Both the position numbers and the translations under genes were made by a program. 64,000 bases of DNA from a bacterium SCSIO 12741. Lineage in GTDB: Bacteria; Bacteroidota; Bacteroidia; Flavobacteriales_G; Salibacteraceae. Shown piece after piece: positions 50,976 to 58,746 of the stretch. The stretch spans positions 3,534,594-3,598,593 of the forward strand of contig CP073749.1 in the NCBI GenBank assembly GCA_024398055.1, given 5' to 3'. Numbering within the stretch: the first letter of the stretch is position 1; each line of letters starts with the position of its first letter. A model generated the notes under the pieces. That model ran no database searches, had not been told where the DNA came from, and saw only the letters and a program-made list of their open reading frames with translations.

Positions 50976-53072
50976 ATGTCAATGAGAACGTTATTGATTG
51001 CCTGGCTTTGCCTTGCATTCACTCCATTCACTTATGCCCAAATTGAGCGGTTCCAAAAATTTGAGCATACCATTAACCCCAGTAGTATTCCAGGCCCTTA
51101 TCAGCCCTTGTACAGTACCAAAAATCCTTTTGATAAGCGGGAGGTTATCCTTAGGGCCACGGTATATGCACCTAGCGGAACGACTCATAACGTAGAAGGT
51201 TTCTTTTACGGAAACTACACCATCAACACACTGAACAATTCACCTCATGCCATGTGGCCATTTATGCCCGGGCAATCGATGTCTAACCAAATTTCTAATT
51301 CCTGGAAAGTTCGATTTACACCCGAAGAGGTGGGGAATTATGTAATTAAACTGGGTTTCTATTTCCCCAATGAAAACTTATATGTTCCTATTCCAAACGT
51401 TAGCTTTTCTTCCCTTACTGAATCAAAACCCAATTCCAGCTTTATTCGGCTGAATAACGGATTTGATTACAGCTATGACAACGGGCAAGTTTATCACCCG
51501 ATCGGACTAAACGTACCAGGCAATCCGGCGTGGGGACAAAGCAGTGGACCGAAAGTCAATTTCTTTGAGACCATCTTTCAGCGCTTTGATGAAAACGGTG
51601 TTAATCACGCTCGGATATGGATGAATTATGCTGGAACAATGGCCATTCAAGGAATTGGTTATACCTATGGTTGCGAACCCTATCTCTATCGATTCAACCT
51701 GGCCGATGCTTATGCCTTCGACCAGGTTTTTGAGTTAGCCGAGCAATACAACATAACTCTGAAAATCAGTTTCTTCAATGCCAACAATTTTACCCAAGGA
51801 GATTTCTGGAATAAATACAATGCTTACAATGCCAATGTAGCGCCACCTGGCCCTGGAGTTTGCCAAACGCCTGTAGGTGGCCCTTGTAATTCAGAAATCG
51901 ACTTCTTTACCAATACCGAAGCCTTCGCCTTGCAGAGCAATGTGGTGCGCTACATTATCGATCGCTATGGATATAGCACTCAGGTCATTCAATGGGAAAT
52001 TTTCAATGAAATCGATCAAATTTGGAATGAGGGACATATTACTTCCGCCGATATTCCTCATTTGGTGACTTGGCACAATGCTATGGCTTCGATTGTTCGT
52101 GATCACGATGTGTATAATCGTGCTTTAGGAACCAGCTATATTGGTTTTGAGGATGAGGTAGGAGCCCATCAGTTGGGAATGGACCCATCCATGGATTTGG
52201 TTTCCTTACATGTGTACTTGAACCAATGGGAAAACCGGTCACCCGACCAGATTTTCTATTCTCCAGCCAACTTTAGCACCAAGATTTCTCTTCTTCGTCA
52301 GAAGTTTCCAGGTAAACCCGTTTGCCTCAATGAAATGGGCTCCTTGCAAATGAATGGAATGCCCTTTAGTATGAATTATACGGAATACGATCCTCATGGA
52401 TTTAGTATTCATACCGATATCTGGACCAGTTTTTTTGACGCCGATCTCGGTGCAGGAATGAATTGGACGGTAGAGCATTTTATAAGTCGAACCAGTTCGT
52501 TTCATGGTGCATTAAACAACTTGGTTCAGTTTAGGGGGCTTCGATCCTTTGTAGATCAGGTTCCGGCCAAAAAAGGAGTTAAGCGTGAGGTGGTTCACGA
52601 AGAGAATTACTTCTTAAGGTGGTTAACCACGCCCGAAAATCAAATCTTTGGTTGGTACCAGGATAAGGCAGGAACGATTAATAACCTTATTCGATCCGGT
52701 AGTACGGGATTAAATGCATCATCCGCTCCCGTGATGGAACCTTATGTTCATACGCCCAATTCCGCGAACAGACCAAGTTTCAAGGCCAACGGTTACTTTT
52801 CGGTGAGCATCCCAATTCCATACGCCAATTACGAAATCAAGTGGTATGACACCCGTACTGGTAATTTGATTCAAACCGATCGTCAGGTAGGAGGATGCAA
52901 TGAACTTAACTTGAGTCTGCCATGGTTGATCAAACAAACCTCCCGATACATGGATGCCGCTTTTGTTATTGAACCTATTTCCATGTCAGAGGATTGGCAA
53001 AAGGTATGGACCAATCACGCTACAGGTAATCTGGGGGATTCACTCAAATCAAAGATTCCGACAAGTTTTTGA
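50976..53072 (+). CDS. Secreted glycosidase-like protein (DUF5060 + GH5-like), N-terminal part (split by frameshift)
   Basis: A 698-residue frame. A signal peptide (cleavage after TYAQ, residue 22) is followed by a DUF5060-like beta domain (about 28-150: YSTKNPFDKREVILRATVYAPSG) and a TIM-barrel glycosidase-like domain. Likely catalytic acid is in IQWEIFNEIDQIW (NE motif) and the nucleophile in PVCLNEMGSLQMNG. The C-terminal part ends abruptly at SLKSKIPTSF. Adding one G to the G5 run at 53033-53037 gives NLGGFTQIKDSDKFLTGDFNRNG and joins the frame at 53069. The full protein would be about 1130 residues. Glycan substrate unknown. Confidence 0.82.
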   Translation: MSMRTLLIAWLCLAFTPFTYAQIERFQKFEHTINPSSIPGPYQPLYSTKNPFDKREVILRATVYAPSGTTHNVEGFFYGNYTINTLNNSPHAMWPFMPGQSMSNQISNSWKVRFTPEEVGNYVIKLGFYFPNENLYVPIPNVSFSSLTESKPNSSFIRLNNGFDYSYDNGQVYHPIGLNVPGNPAWGQSSGPKVNFFETIFQRFDENGVNHARIWMNYAGTMAIQGIGYTYGCEPYLYRFNLADAYAFDQVFELAEQYNITLKISFFNANNFTQGDFWNKYNAYNANVAPPGPGVCQTPVGGPCNSEIDFFTNTEAFALQSNVVRYIIDRYGYSTQVIQWEIFNEIDQIWNEGHITSADIPHLVTWHNAMASIVRDHDVYNRALGTSYIGFEDEVGAHQLGMDPSMDLVSLHVYLNQWENRSPDQIFYSPANFSTKISLLRQKFPGKPVCLNEMGSLQMNGMPFSMNYTEYDPHGFSIHTDIWTSFFDADLGAGMNWTVEHFISRTSSFHGALNNLVQFRGLRSFVDQVPAKKGVKREVVHEENYFLRWLTTPENQIFGWYQDKAGTINNLIRSGSTGLNASSAPVMEPYVHTPNSANRPSFKANGYFSVSIPIPYANYEIKWYDTRTGNLIQTDRQVGGCNELNLSLPWLIKQTSRYMDAAFVIEPISMSEDWQKVWTNHATGNLGDSLKSKIPTSF

Positions 53073-54370
53073 CCGGTGATTTTAACCGAAACGGAAGAGA
53101 AGAACTATTGTGGATTAGAACCGATCAGAACGCAGGAATGAATACCCATGCTACTTTCGAATACATTAGCGGAAACTGGAGTCCGGTTTGGTCCAATTTA
53201 GGTGGATCCCATGTGGTGAATTCCTCTTTTGATGCGGTCTACTCAGGCACCCGATTGATCGTTGGTGATTTTGATGGAGATGGAGGTGATGATATCCTGG
53301 CTGTCCCTCAATCCGGTTTGATCAAAATGTACAAATACGACAATGGAGATTTTGTGCTGCATCATACCATTCCTTCTGGTCATGCTGTTTATCCCTACCG
53401 AGAAGGATTGGCCGCCGGAAATCTGGATGGTGGATCTGAAGACGAGTTATTGGGGCATATTGAAAATGGCTGGACTACTATTTTCAAATACCTGAACGGA
53501 AACTTCGTATGGTTCGATTCCGACCAGGGGACAAGCTCCGTTAAACCTTATCCAACGGGAAGTATTCGTATGGCGGATGTAGATGACGATGGAAAAGATG
53601 AAATGATTGCTCTTGGAAACTGGGGAACCCTGTTTAATTACGACAATGGAAACTTTTCCTGGGCTTGGTCTACCAATGGTTCCAACAGCTTTGGCGGCTG
53701 GAATTATCCCTTGGTAAGCGGAGATGTTATGCTCTTTGGTCAGTTAGATTCGGATACCAGGGAAGAGGTGATGTTTATTCAGCGAGGAGCGGCCGCTTAT
53801 TGGGCTGCAACTTTGGATTTACAGATTCATCCGGTAACAGGGGCTCATTCCTGGAACTGGAATTGGACGGCCAACAATGCGAATGCTGGGGTACATCCTT
53901 ATATTAATGACTGGCCCATCAATGCCGGTACTTCGCCAACGAGCTATGTAATGATTCAGGCTGAGAAGTGGCAACCTCATTATTTGCTTTGTTTCCGAAG
54001 AGGCACCTGTGCACCGAACACGAAGTACCTGGTGAGCATGTACCGTTCTGAGCCAGGAGCCAATCGTTCGGCCGATGCTGAAGCCATGATAACGGCTACA
54101 GAAGAATCTGAAGTGAAAGAGCCATCTTCCTGGAAAATCTACCCGAATCCGGCAAAAGATCAAGTATTCATCGAATGGAGCGATCCTTCTGAGGAAACTA
54201 CCATTCGGGTATACAATGCCTCCGGAGCTCTGGTTCTACAGGAAGCCATTTCTATAGAATCGGGAAGAGCGTATAAACTCGATGTGTCTTCCTATCCTAC
54301 AGGAGTATACCAGGTAGTTAGTTCCTCTTCGGCGGGAACTCAAACCAAGCAATTGATTATTACCAAATAA
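53069..54370 (+). CDS. FG-GAP/VCBS repeat and T9SS sorting domain, C-terminal part of the glycosidase-like protein
   Basis: A 433-residue frame without its own signal peptide and starting within a repeat. It contains FG-GAP-like calcium-binding repeats, DFNRNGREELLW, VGDFDGDGGDDILAV and MADVDDDGKDEMIAL, typical of a beta-propeller. It ends with a T9SS type A sorting domain, SWKIYPNPAKDQVFIEW...GVYQVVSSSSAGTQTKQLIITK. On its own it cannot be exported; it needs the signal peptide from the frame upstream, which supports the two being one gene broken by a missing G. Confidence 0.85.
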   Translation: MTGDFNRNGREELLWIRTDQNAGMNTHATFEYISGNWSPVWSNLGGSHVVNSSFDAVYSGTRLIVGDFDGDGGDDILAVPQSGLIKMYKYDNGDFVLHHTIPSGHAVYPYREGLAAGNLDGGSEDELLGHIENGWTTIFKYLNGNFVWFDSDQGTSSVKPYPTGSIRMADVDDDGKDEMIALGNWGTLFNYDNGNFSWAWSTNGSNSFGGWNYPLVSGDVMLFGQLDSDTREEVMFIQRGAAAYWAATLDLQIHPVTGAHSWNWNWTANNANAGVHPYINDWPINAGTSPTSYVMIQAEKWQPHYLLCFRRGTCAPNTKYLVSMYRSEPGANRSADAEAMITATEESEVKEPSSWKIYPNPAKDQVFIEWSDPSEETTIRVYNASGALVLQEAISIESGRAYKLDVSSYPTGVYQVVSSSSAGTQTKQLIITK

Positions 54371-55509: not shown

Positions 55510-56457
55510 TTACAAAAAGTTCACAGCAGCCTGCCTTTCCCGGTTAACGATCAACTTGGTTACATCAGGCCGGGAGTAGTGTCCAACCGGGTCAAAATTC
55601 TGGCGTTCTTCCAATACCCGATTAAAATCCAAGTTGGCGGTAAACAATCCTTCCTCGTTTACCACTGGTGCAACAATCCACTCGCCATTGGGAGCGGCTA
55701 TACAAGAACCGCCATCCACCAAAACATCGGGAGCGTCGGCTATGATTTTATCGTAATGTGGAATGTCCTCCGGGATGTCTTCTTTTCGGAGTACCCCGCT
55801 TACGGATACCGAAAAGGAGCGCCCTTCTTTAGCCAGAAAGGGAGTGATATCTTCCGTATTTCTAAGACAGCCTGGCCACACGGCTATGTGCAAATTCTCG
55901 CCTTGTCCATACAGAGCAGTGCGGCTCAAAGGCATCCAATTTTCCCAGCAGTTTAACCCGCCAACCCGGAAAGGACCTATATCATGAACTTGCAGGCCAT
56001 GACCATCACCGGGGGACCAAGACAGTCGTTCTTCGTAGGTGGGTTGAAGTTTACGATGGACCGATCGAATACTTCCCTCAGCATCGATGTAAACCAGGGA
56101 ACAGTATAAGCTGTGACCTCCGCGATTTTGAGCCCGCTCAATGATTCCCAGATAAATGGCAATTTGTTCCGTTCGTGCTAATTCGCAGATTTCATCCAAA
56201 TCACCGGATTCAATTTGAACCGCATTTCGAATATAGTGGGCATGGATCTCCTTTTGGATGATGGAATTGAACTCAGAAGCATGGGTCAAGGACAGCCAGA
56301 ATGGATATCCAGGAACCATAGCTTCTCCAAATACGACAAGTCCACATTCCTCCTGGCTCGCCTTAAGGACGTATTCCTTCACCTTGTCCAGGGTTTTGTT
56401 GCGATCCAACAAAACAGGGGCAATCTGCGCCATTCCGATTTTAAGAAGATTTTCCAT
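55510..56457 (-). CDS. Nitrilase-type carbon-nitrogen hydrolase
   Basis: A 315-residue enzyme of the nitrilase superfamily. The catalytic triad is visible: E45 in FGEAMVPGYPFW, K136 in VHRKLQPTYEE and C170 in GGLNCWENWMP. The CWENWMP segment and the FGE.MVPGYPFW segment are typical of true nitrilases and cyanide hydratases, rather than amidases or NAD synthetase glutaminase domains. Length matches (310-360). It would hydrolyse organic nitriles to acids plus ammonia; natural substrate unknown. No neighbouring aldoxime or nitrile pathway gene was seen. Confidence 0.9.
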   Translation of the reverse strand: MENLLKIGMAQIAPVLLDRNKTLDKVKEYVLKASQEECGLVVFGEAMVPGYPFWLSLTHASEFNSIIQKEIHAHYIRNAVQIESGDLDEICELARTEQIAIYLGIIERAQNRGGHSLYCSLVYIDAEGSIRSVHRKLQPTYEERLSWSPGDGHGLQVHDIGPFRVGGLNCWENWMPLSRTALYGQGENLHIAVWPGCLRNTEDITPFLAKEGRSFSVSVSGVLRKEDIPEDIPHYDKIIADAPDVLVDGGSCIAAPNGEWIVAPVVNEEGLFTANLDFNRVLEERQNFDPVGHYSRPDVTKLIVNRERQAAVNFL

Positions 56458-56505: not shown

Positions 56506-56552
56506 CCCAGGTGCGCGTTTAACCAGGTGCGCGTTTAAACGCGTACCTGGTC
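56506..56552. repeat. 47-bp palindromic repeat, copy A
   Basis: Built from a 16-nt word (CCAGGTGCGCGTTTAA) twice in direct orientation, then its inverse (TTTAAACGCGTACCTGG), giving a near-perfect palindrome around TTTAAA. It matches copy B (57229-57275) at 46 of 47 positions in the same orientation. The last codons and stop of the 56535-57188 gene lie inside it. Confidence 0.9.
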
Positions 56553-57188
56553 ATTTGAAATGTATTTATCAATGATCTTCGAATCGATTTTGAACTTATA
56601 CATTAAGCCACTTGAGATGATTAAAATCGAACCTAAAAATCCAAAGTAGACAAAGAACTCAGAATAATTTTCTGGGTAAATCCACTTTACGGAGTATTTT
56701 ACGGAAAGGATTAGAAAACCAGTAACTCCCAACCCTACAGCTATTCGGTTTTTTATTTTCCAATTACAGATTTTCAGAATGATCTCGTACATGTCCGCAT
56801 TTTGAGGAGCCTCAAGATCTTGCAAGTGTTTAAAAATGGGTTTGGCTTTAGCAAATTGTTTCTGTTCCATAAGAGAATATCCCTTACTCCAGCAGGCTTG
56901 ATTATATGAAACTTCTTGAGTTAAATCGATGTCCATTTGATTATGATTGGTTTCATAAAGATTTATTACCCGATTAAGGATGGCTATAGCAGTTTTGTGT
57001 TTTCCCGAGAACGAATAAGTTTGACCAATTTCAGATAGCATACTCAGGTATCTTTTTAACTCGTTTGGATGGACAGGTTGAAAGGAGATGAAAAAGGACT
57101 TGTTCATTTCATAAAATGGAAGAAGTTGATCAGTATCAAATGGGGTAATGTTCAGGTATTCTTTTTCTAAGGATTGGAAGGTGGACAT
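56535..57188 (-). CDS. Membrane protein with TPR-like helices inside a repeat-bounded cassette
   Basis: A 217-residue protein. The N-terminal two-thirds is helical and TPR-like (LKRYLSMLSEIGQTYSFSGKHKTAIAIL, YNQACWSKGYSLMEQKQFAKAKPIFK), and the C-terminal part has two membrane helices (about 150-168 and 180-198). No signal peptide. The last residues DQVRV and the stop are supplied by the 47-bp repeat. The gene is flanked by direct copies of this repeat and has AT-richer, less regular codon choice than its neighbours by eye. No family recognised; possibly an imported cassette gene. Confidence 0.72.
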   Translation of the reverse strand: MSTFQSLEKEYLNITPFDTDQLLPFYEMNKSFFISFQPVHPNELKRYLSMLSEIGQTYSFSGKHKTAIAILNRVINLYETNHNQMDIDLTQEVSYNQACWSKGYSLMEQKQFAKAKPIFKHLQDLEAPQNADMYEIILKICNWKIKNRIAVGLGVTGFLILSVKYSVKWIYPENYSEFFVYFGFLGSILIISSGLMYKFKIDSKIIDKYISNDQVRV

Positions 57189-57228
57189 TGATTCAAATTT
57201 CCTAACGAATATAATTTGTTTCGGCCGA

Positions 57229-57275
57229 CCCAGGTGCGCGTTTGACCAGGTGCGCGTTTAAACGCGTACCTGGTC
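57229..57275. repeat. 47-bp palindromic repeat, copy B
   Basis: The second copy lies 41 nt upstream of the cassette gene start. It is identical to copy A except for one A/G difference at position 16. Between the copies lies the single gene and little else. Confidence 0.9.
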
Positions 57276-57297: not shown

Positions 57298-58746
57298 TTA
57301 GCTTTTCCAAATGACGCGTCGTGCCTCCAGTAAAAGCGATTTACTAAGAATTCCAGAAAATAGCACCAGCAACAAATAGCCGACCAAACTGGTTCCAAAG
57401 AGCATCCAAAAAGGCACGGTCCATACTTCCAGGGTATCGATCAAAATGTAGGCTGCAAGCATGACGGGGATAAACCGAATCCAAAGCTTACCGAAATGGG
57501 GAATGTAGCCCTTGTAAACGCAATAGATAAATGTTCCAAGACCGCAACTGGCCTGGGCGATCAGGGTAGCCAAGGCAGCGCCTTCGGCTTGGTAATCGGG
57601 AATGGCGAAAAGGTTGAAAACAAAATTCAGAACAAAGGATATTCCGGTAATCACCATCATGGCTTTTAGCTCCCCAGCTGCGGTAAGTACGGTGCCAAAT
57701 AAAGACGCCATCACCAAAAACAACCAGGAAGTCATTAACCAGGAAAAGGCCGTAAAACTTTGAGCATCAGGATCGCTGTACAACATGTGAATGATGTCTT
57801 CCCGAAAAAACCAACCACCCAGTAGAACGAAGCCCGCTGGAATAAACAACAACCTGATAGATAGTTGAATGAGGTCCAAAATAGGCTCTTTTTGAAACAG
57901 CATTCGGGAGAGTAGGGGAAAGAGTATGGCGGTGAACAGGAAGGTAAAGTTGTTCAGCATATCGAGTATCCGATAACCATGGGCATAAACCCCTGAATAG
58001 AATTTACCGTCGGATAGCAAACGCTCGAGCATGATGGCATCCAGCCGGCTATACATGCTCATAAAAAGAATAATAAAGGCGAAAGGAAGGCTGTTTTTAA
58101 GCAGTGTTATCACATAGTCCCGGCTAAGGGAAAAGGATAACCCGGAGCCCATGCTATGGGCAATGACGCCAATGAGAATTGTGGCTATTAACAGGGATGC
58201 CGTTTGAGAATACACCAACCATTCAATTTGAAAACGATCATCTATTCCCCATATTAAATAGGCGCAAATCCCTATAAGCAATAAGCGATCAAAAACCGAG
58301 GCAATACTATCCCAGGTAAATCGCTGGAGGCCGGATATATTGGACCGGAAAAAGAGCAGAAGGGATGTAAGGAATTGATTGATGGTGAGAAAAAAGAGTA
58401 GTTGAAATTCGGTGCCGTCATAACCCAGAAACCAGCCAACGGAAAGGGTAACAATCAAGTAAAGACCGCCCAAGCCTATTTTGATTCCAGTAAGTTTGGT
58501 CAGGTTGTCTTTCAAAAAATCCGCTTCCCGAGCTACCGAGCGATTGTTGTAATTCGTTATGCCTAAATCCAACAGGGAATTGAACAGGTAGGAGAAATTG
58601 AACAAGGCAAAATACAGCCCGTAATTTTCCGAACCTACCTCGTTTTGAACGGTCCGGTCAATCCCAAAAATCCAAAAGGGTTTGACCAGCAAATTGAGAA
58701 ACAGCAGCAAGAGGACATCAAACAGAAAGCGTCGATTGGTACTCAT
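57298..58746 (-). CDS. Polysaccharide flippase-like membrane protein (Wzx/MATE-like)
   Basis: A 482-residue protein with about 12-14 membrane helices and the opening FDVLLLLFLNLLVKPFWIFGIDRTVQNEVGSENYGLYFALFNFSYLFNSLLDLGITNYNNR, typical of the oligosaccharide flippase (polysaccharide_synt) family. Such proteins move lipid-linked sugars across the inner membrane. No glycosyltransferase cluster lies next to it in the window, so the cargo is unknown. It is on the same strand as the beta-barrel and lipoprotein genes, with 11 nt to the next. Confidence 0.85.
   Translation of the reverse strand: MSTNRRFLFDVLLLLFLNLLVKPFWIFGIDRTVQNEVGSENYGLYFALFNFSYLFNSLLDLGITNYNNRSVAREADFLKDNLTKLTGIKIGLGGLYLIVTLSVGWFLGYDGTEFQLLFFLTINQFLTSLLLFFRSNISGLQRFTWDSIASVFDRLLLIGICAYLIWGIDDRFQIEWLVYSQTASLLIATILIGVIAHSMGSGLSFSLSRDYVITLLKNSLPFAFIILFMSMYSRLDAIMLERLLSDGKFYSGVYAHGYRILDMLNNFTFLFTAILFPLLSRMLFQKEPILDLIQLSIRLLFIPAGFVLLGGWFFREDIIHMLYSDPDAQSFTAFSWLMTSWLFLVMASLFGTVLTAAGELKAMMVITGISFVLNFVFNLFAIPDYQAEGAALATLIAQASCGLGTFIYCVYKGYIPHFGKLWIRFIPVMLAAYILIDTLEVWTVPFWMLFGTSLVGYLLLVLFSGILSKSLLLEARRVIWKS

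Follow-up and report, generated by a model that had tools for sequence, protein, structure and literature searches.

RAYTs are widespread proteins whose role is, to our knowledge, unknown, and we know of little description of the Bacteroidota type, which is associated with atypical hairpins. Subclass 2.6 (group 5) RAYTs occur mainly in Bacteroidetes, consist of about 179 amino acid residues, carry the motifs NH[LIV]H, WQ, and YIH[QN]NP, and are accompanied by atypical secondary structures or hairpins, copies of which are found elsewhere in the genome (PMC6006769). The placement of REPs at gene 3′ ends, with some of them supplying the stop codon, has been described for other REP types (PMC3733652). 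The 64-kb stretch analyzed here (the window; C1:3534594-3598593 of a genome consisting of a single contig, C1, of 5,103,034 bp) contains two members of a small REP family with a likely RAYT, one on each side of a probably acquired gene. An arrangement of this kind, a REP family with a likely RAYT, is known; its composite hairpins, low copy number, and repeated bracketing of single genes are noteworthy. The positions of all features are listed in Table 1.

The two direct repeats are 47 nt long, lie in the same orientation with a spacing of 723 nt, and are 46/47 identical (98%), the sole difference being A/G at position 16. Each copy, CCCAGGTGCGCGTTT(A/G)A followed by CCAGGTGCGCGTTTAAACGCGTACCTGGTC, is composed of an arm, a second arm, and an inverted arm (16-nt words) and is centered on TTTAAA. 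Pairing with the third arm is open to either of the other two, the predicted partner being the first arm for copy 1 and the second for copy 2. Single-strand folding of the two copies surpassed that of shuffled sequences (z values of −4.4 to −5.4), with none of 200 shuffles being equally good; in the fold test overall, z ranged from −4.4 to −6.8. The hairpin contains a G·T wobble on the plus strand and an A·C mismatch on the minus strand. Beyond the 47-bp edges, the flanks of the two copies share chance matches only, and the closest relative of each window copy is the other window copy. No third 47-bp copy was found in the window. These results agree with the initial annotation, which had described two near-identical hairpin-forming palindromic repeats in the same orientation around one ORF, with no further identical copies in 64 kb.

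The bracketed ORF, which had been called a small membrane-protein gene, encodes, according to Pfam and its sequence, a TPR protein with two C-terminal hydrophobic segments. Its 3′ end reads CAG GTA CGC GTT TAA (...NDQVRV-stop), in which QVRV-stop is wholly repeat sequence; the last residues of the protein are supplied by the left repeat copy, as had been noted for its last codons and stop. The composition of the inter-repeat stretch is foreign to the window: its GC content of 34.3% is the minimum of 1267 sliding windows of 676 bp across the 64 kb, which average 44.2% (sd 2.2). Among 395 genomes of the class, including its own, a good homologue of the TPR gene was found in one other genome (44% identity, 212 aa), and four further matches were all weak. 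Based on the lowest GC content in the window and the single good homologue, the gene is rare and was probably acquired, and the presence of REPs beside an acquired gene is well supported. No REP-like hairpin was found near the good homologue, which has a different C-terminus; therefore, the repeat looks to have been added to the TPR gene. The flippase and nitrilase genes were adjacent in 0 of 29 relative loci inspected, and because they are not neighbors in relatives, no empty site for the window was found. The TPR gene had no match on plasmids. Its assignment as a defence-system gene was rejected, as PADLOC gave no match.

The repeats are not a private cassette boundary, as members of the same family are present elsewhere in the genome. 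We named the family with the core palindrome CAGGTRCGCGTTTAAACGCGYACCTG REP-A and searched for it allowing up to 3 mismatches. The core was found at 11 places genome-wide, compared with 0 for a reversed control pattern, and was not found in 59 relatives; the search of the genome and its relatives suggested in the initial annotation thus yielded 11 sites, not the hundreds that would mark an ordinary REP-type palindrome. REP-A palindromes are short, lie mostly between genes, and can fold as single strands; in 5 of the 11 copies, an additional half-arm makes the unit a composite. In 10 of the 11 copies, the arms have a mismatch at a fixed position, with G opposite T. The feet of the aligned copies are mostly CTCAGG or CCAGG, and the guide tetranucleotide GT[AG]G is absent from the hairpin foot. 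Seven of the 11 copies overlap a stop codon or are no more than about 25 bp away from one, and the M90 peptidase gene is the second gene that ends in QVRV within a REP. A REP behind a gene and another behind its upstream neighbor can leave the gene bracketed by 3′-end placement alone. Five pairs within 2 kb were observed, while our own arithmetic gives about 0.04 for 11 random sites. This clustering in pairs, together with the nearest kinship of the window copies, indicates that independent insertion alone is inadequate to explain the placement. Downstream of tRNA-Asp, we also observed a worn unit resembling REP-A, with another palindrome (TCCCGATACCTATCGGGA) in its loop.

A Y1_Tnp gene, RAYT-1, is located 374 kb from the window pair. 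Its product of 182 aa matches NCBIfam NF047646 (REP-associated tyrosine transposase) at a score of 102.6 bits, above the cut-off of 80. The gene starts 84 and 263 bp after the starts of two REP-A palindromes, the nearest of which ends 58 bp before it. No REP was found downstream of RAYT-1; therefore, the REPtron is one-sided. RAYT-1 contains NHIH and YIHLNP, and no WQ was seen; no solved structure matched it by sequence. The spacing between the HUH motif and the tyrosine is longer than in the IS200 type (compared with IS608), in keeping with the insertion present in subclass 2.6. A paralogue, RAYT-2, at about 949 kb (176 aa, 48% identity to RAYT-1, with NHLH and YIHQNP), adjoins a different palindrome family, GCGGATTTNAAATCCGC, with about 20 sites. 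A partial second copy of the start of RAYT-2 lies upstream. Hairpins with a similar layout (CTGGTGCGCGTCTGCGACGCGTGCCAG, CTGGCGCGCGTTTGTAACGCGTGCCAA, and CTGGAGCGCGTTTGCAACGCGTTCCAG) flank relatives of RAYT-1 in other Bacteroidota (48–57% identity); one to seven copies were found in these genomes, mostly around the RAYT. CGCG-armed hairpins occur near the gene in some members of the RAYT family, and a simple scan detected no clear hairpin at many other related RAYT loci. In two distant Bacteroidota genomes, an ORF for a serine hydrolase, beta-lactamase-like by eye, adjoins the RAYT, which may be due to chance.

Table 1. Positions of the repeats, genes, and related features. Unprefixed positions are those of the window; C1 is the contig.
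Feature	Position	Strand	Remark
REP-A composite copy 1 (half-arm and full hairpin)	56506..56552	+	contains last codons and stop of TPR ORF
Inner palindrome of copy 1	56522-56551
REP-A composite copy 2	57229..57275	+	same orientation, 1 difference; 22 bp past flippase stop
Inner palindrome of copy 2	57244-57275
TPR protein ORF (217 aa)	56535..57188	-	two C-terminal hydrophobic segments; interval 34% GC
Polysaccharide flippase-like gene	57298..58746	-	upstream neighbor of TPR ORF
Carbon-nitrogen hydrolase (nitrilase) gene	55510..56457	-	downstream neighbor of TPR ORF
Abutting ORFs (698 and 433 aa)	50976-54370	+	4-base overlap
REP-A sites in window	C1:3591117, C1:3591840
infB-SPOR locus	C1:1143627-1145299
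REP-A sites at infB-SPOR locus	C1:1143657, C1:1145248		1145248 is a worn copy
REP-A single site	C1:3436747
REP-A sites	C1:3920319, C1:3921582
REP-A sites just upstream of RAYT-1	C1:3965201, C1:3965380
REP-A sites at M90 peptidase gene locus	C1:4735560, C1:4735762
Stop-codon-associated copies, window			TPR ORF and flippase gene
Stop-codon-associated copies, locus L062			SPOR gene and 473-aa gene
Stop-codon-associated copy, locus L063			181-aa gene
Stop-codon-associated copy, locus L064			229-aa ORF
Stop-codon-associated copy, locus L066			M90 peptidase gene; ends in QVRV inside repeat
129-bp duplication	C1:4735559-4735889
RAYT-1	C1:3965464-3966012
RAYT-2 region	C1:949132-950099
Partial second copy of RAYT-2 start	C1:949805-949927
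Serine hydrolase ORFs adjoining RAYT	L065:3600-4925, L197:4816-5946
Worn REP-A-like unit	L064:3160-3230		downstream of tRNA-Asp

RAYT-1 agrees with subclass 2.6 (PMC6006769) in its length (182 aa), its HUH motif (NHIH), the taxon in which it occurs, and the type of its hairpins, which are found next to the gene as well as at other sites in the genome; a YIHxNP motif is present, and the GT[AG]G tag is absent. It differs in having YIHLNP instead of YIH[QN]NP, in that WQ was not seen, and in having REPs only upstream; composites of a half-arm and a hairpin and pairs bracketing single genes are further differences. Because of YIHLNP and the WQ not seen, RAYT-1 is placed provisionally as closest to subclass 2.6 (group 5) and not as a proven member. 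With the GTAG REPs, BIMEs, and REPINs of Enterobacteria and Pseudomonas (PMC3733652, PMC8266576), REP-A shares short palindromes located at gene 3′ ends, sometimes supplying the stop codon, and a likely cognate RAYT, whereas it lacks the GTAG tag, has about 11 copies compared with hundreds, and forms pairs whose members are separated by hundreds of bases and are not inverted in every case. With IS200/IS605, it shares a related HUH/Y1 enzyme and hairpins at the two ends of a one-strand segment, but only the TPR ORF, and no tnpA or tnpB, lies between the window repeats, and the enzyme is not carried by the segment.

The 47-bp units are probably low-copy REP elements of a Bacteroidota RAYT encoded on the same chromosome, as suggested by the palindrome family at 11 places, the RAYT beside two of its copies, and the similar hairpins beside related RAYTs. 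Eleven copies are few for REPs, and the lack of GT[AG]G, the YIHLNP motif, the WQ not seen, the one-sided REPtron, and the many related RAYT loci with no clear hairpin also weigh against this reading. RAYT-1 would be a domesticated IS200-like HUH/Y1 single-strand nuclease that recognizes the hairpin folded on one strand, perhaps choosing the strand with the G·T wobble over that with the A·C mismatch. It would cut beside the hairpin and join it to DNA at another site, for the most part shortly after a stop codon. Of the two window REPs, one follows the flippase gene and the other lies within the 3′ end of the probably acquired, AT-rich TPR gene, where it supplies the last codons and the stop; together, the two REPs would mimic a cassette. 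We infer this action of RAYT-1 on REP-A, the choice of strand, and the order of events.

A different reading is that the TPR gene arrived as a unit with its REPs. Two routes are conceivable: a RAYT acting in trans could cut two same-strand REPs and move the single strand between them, as at the ends of IS200/IS605, or the gene could enter at a resident REP as part of a circle that bears a single REP. The AT-rich segment (34.3% GC) that terminates at the REPs and the direct, nearly identical window copies are consistent with such transport, but the good TPR homologue (44% identity) lacks REPs and has a different C-terminus, and there is no empty site for the window. At the infB-SPOR locus, a 473-aa FG-GAP gene with a T9SS sorting tail lies between two inverted REP-A composites, and infB and SPOR are adjacent without this gene in 18 relatives; this case would also fit, although the REPs are inverted and the gene, with 45.7% GC, is not AT-rich. 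A 268-aa ORF (35.7% GC) between two REP-like hairpins near a RAYT in another genome, that of a RAYT relative, is a further example in its favor. A 129-bp block composed of REP-A and the 3′ end of the M90 peptidase gene is duplicated with 92% identity; starting from the edge of the REP, it extends over about 100 bp of the gene, indicating that neighboring DNA can be copied with a REP. On the other hand, the REPs lie nearer to the 3′ ends of the upstream genes (13–22 bp) than to the starts of the supposed cargo (40–128 bp). Overall, gene transport via REPs is possible but rather unlikely. The cassette reading of the initial annotation is partly supported: the repeats are of a mobile type, the same genome encodes a transposase likely to be cognate to their family, and the gene between them looks acquired; recombination or excision of this gene through the repeats is unsupported, because most copies are at the 3′ ends of unrelated genes, the good homologue lacks the repeats, and no empty site was found. 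Conservation of the gene in place, which had been named as an argument against mobility, was not observed.

A tandem duplication or gene conversion, in which slippage or recombination of the host copied one REP locally and the gene in between is incidental, could account for the window copies being each other's nearest and has a parallel in the 129-bp duplication with a REP elsewhere in the genome. This is quite unlikely, as the similarity stops exactly at the 47-bp edges and the flank is not shared. A REP-B double hairpin was observed at the junction of the 129-bp duplication. The position of the hairpins at gene 3′ ends would also suit ordinary transcription terminators or regulatory hairpins, but a T-run after the hairpin is absent and the near-identical sequence is limited to 11 places and to 0 of 59 relatives, which makes this function very improbable. 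A gene flanked by two direct palindromic repeats resembles a cassette of a tyrosine-recombinase or integron-like system, in which the repeats are attachment sites. We rejected this integrase-type mechanism as having next to no likelihood, since a Pfam scan covering 44 window ORFs revealed no recombinase or integrase, as had been annotated, and the repeats are common to the RAYT locus, with diverse neighbors; such repeats would be expected to be served by a RAYT (HUH/Y1 single-strand nuclease) rather than by an integrase.

The set of hairpins in this genome, 11 in number, is small enough to be listed in full and is accompanied by one likely cognate enzyme. Other species contain related enzymes that have related hairpins, and two or three genes that look acquired are bracketed by such hairpins. 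Should pairs of REPs carry genes, REPs would provide a means of capturing genes and would not be only passive or regulatory hairpins. No papers on REP cargo or passenger genes were found in the literature searched. It is doubtful that, in Bacteroidota, a domesticated RAYT mobilizes REP-bracketed single accessory genes in trans, with REP pairs being the ends of small non-autonomous gene-carrying elements.

Elsewhere in the window, two abutting plus-strand ORFs of 698 and 433 aa were observed. The pair encodes a secreted DUF5060 glycosidase-like part followed by FG-GAP and a T9SS sorting tail, and a frameshift may have divided a single gene into the two ORFs.
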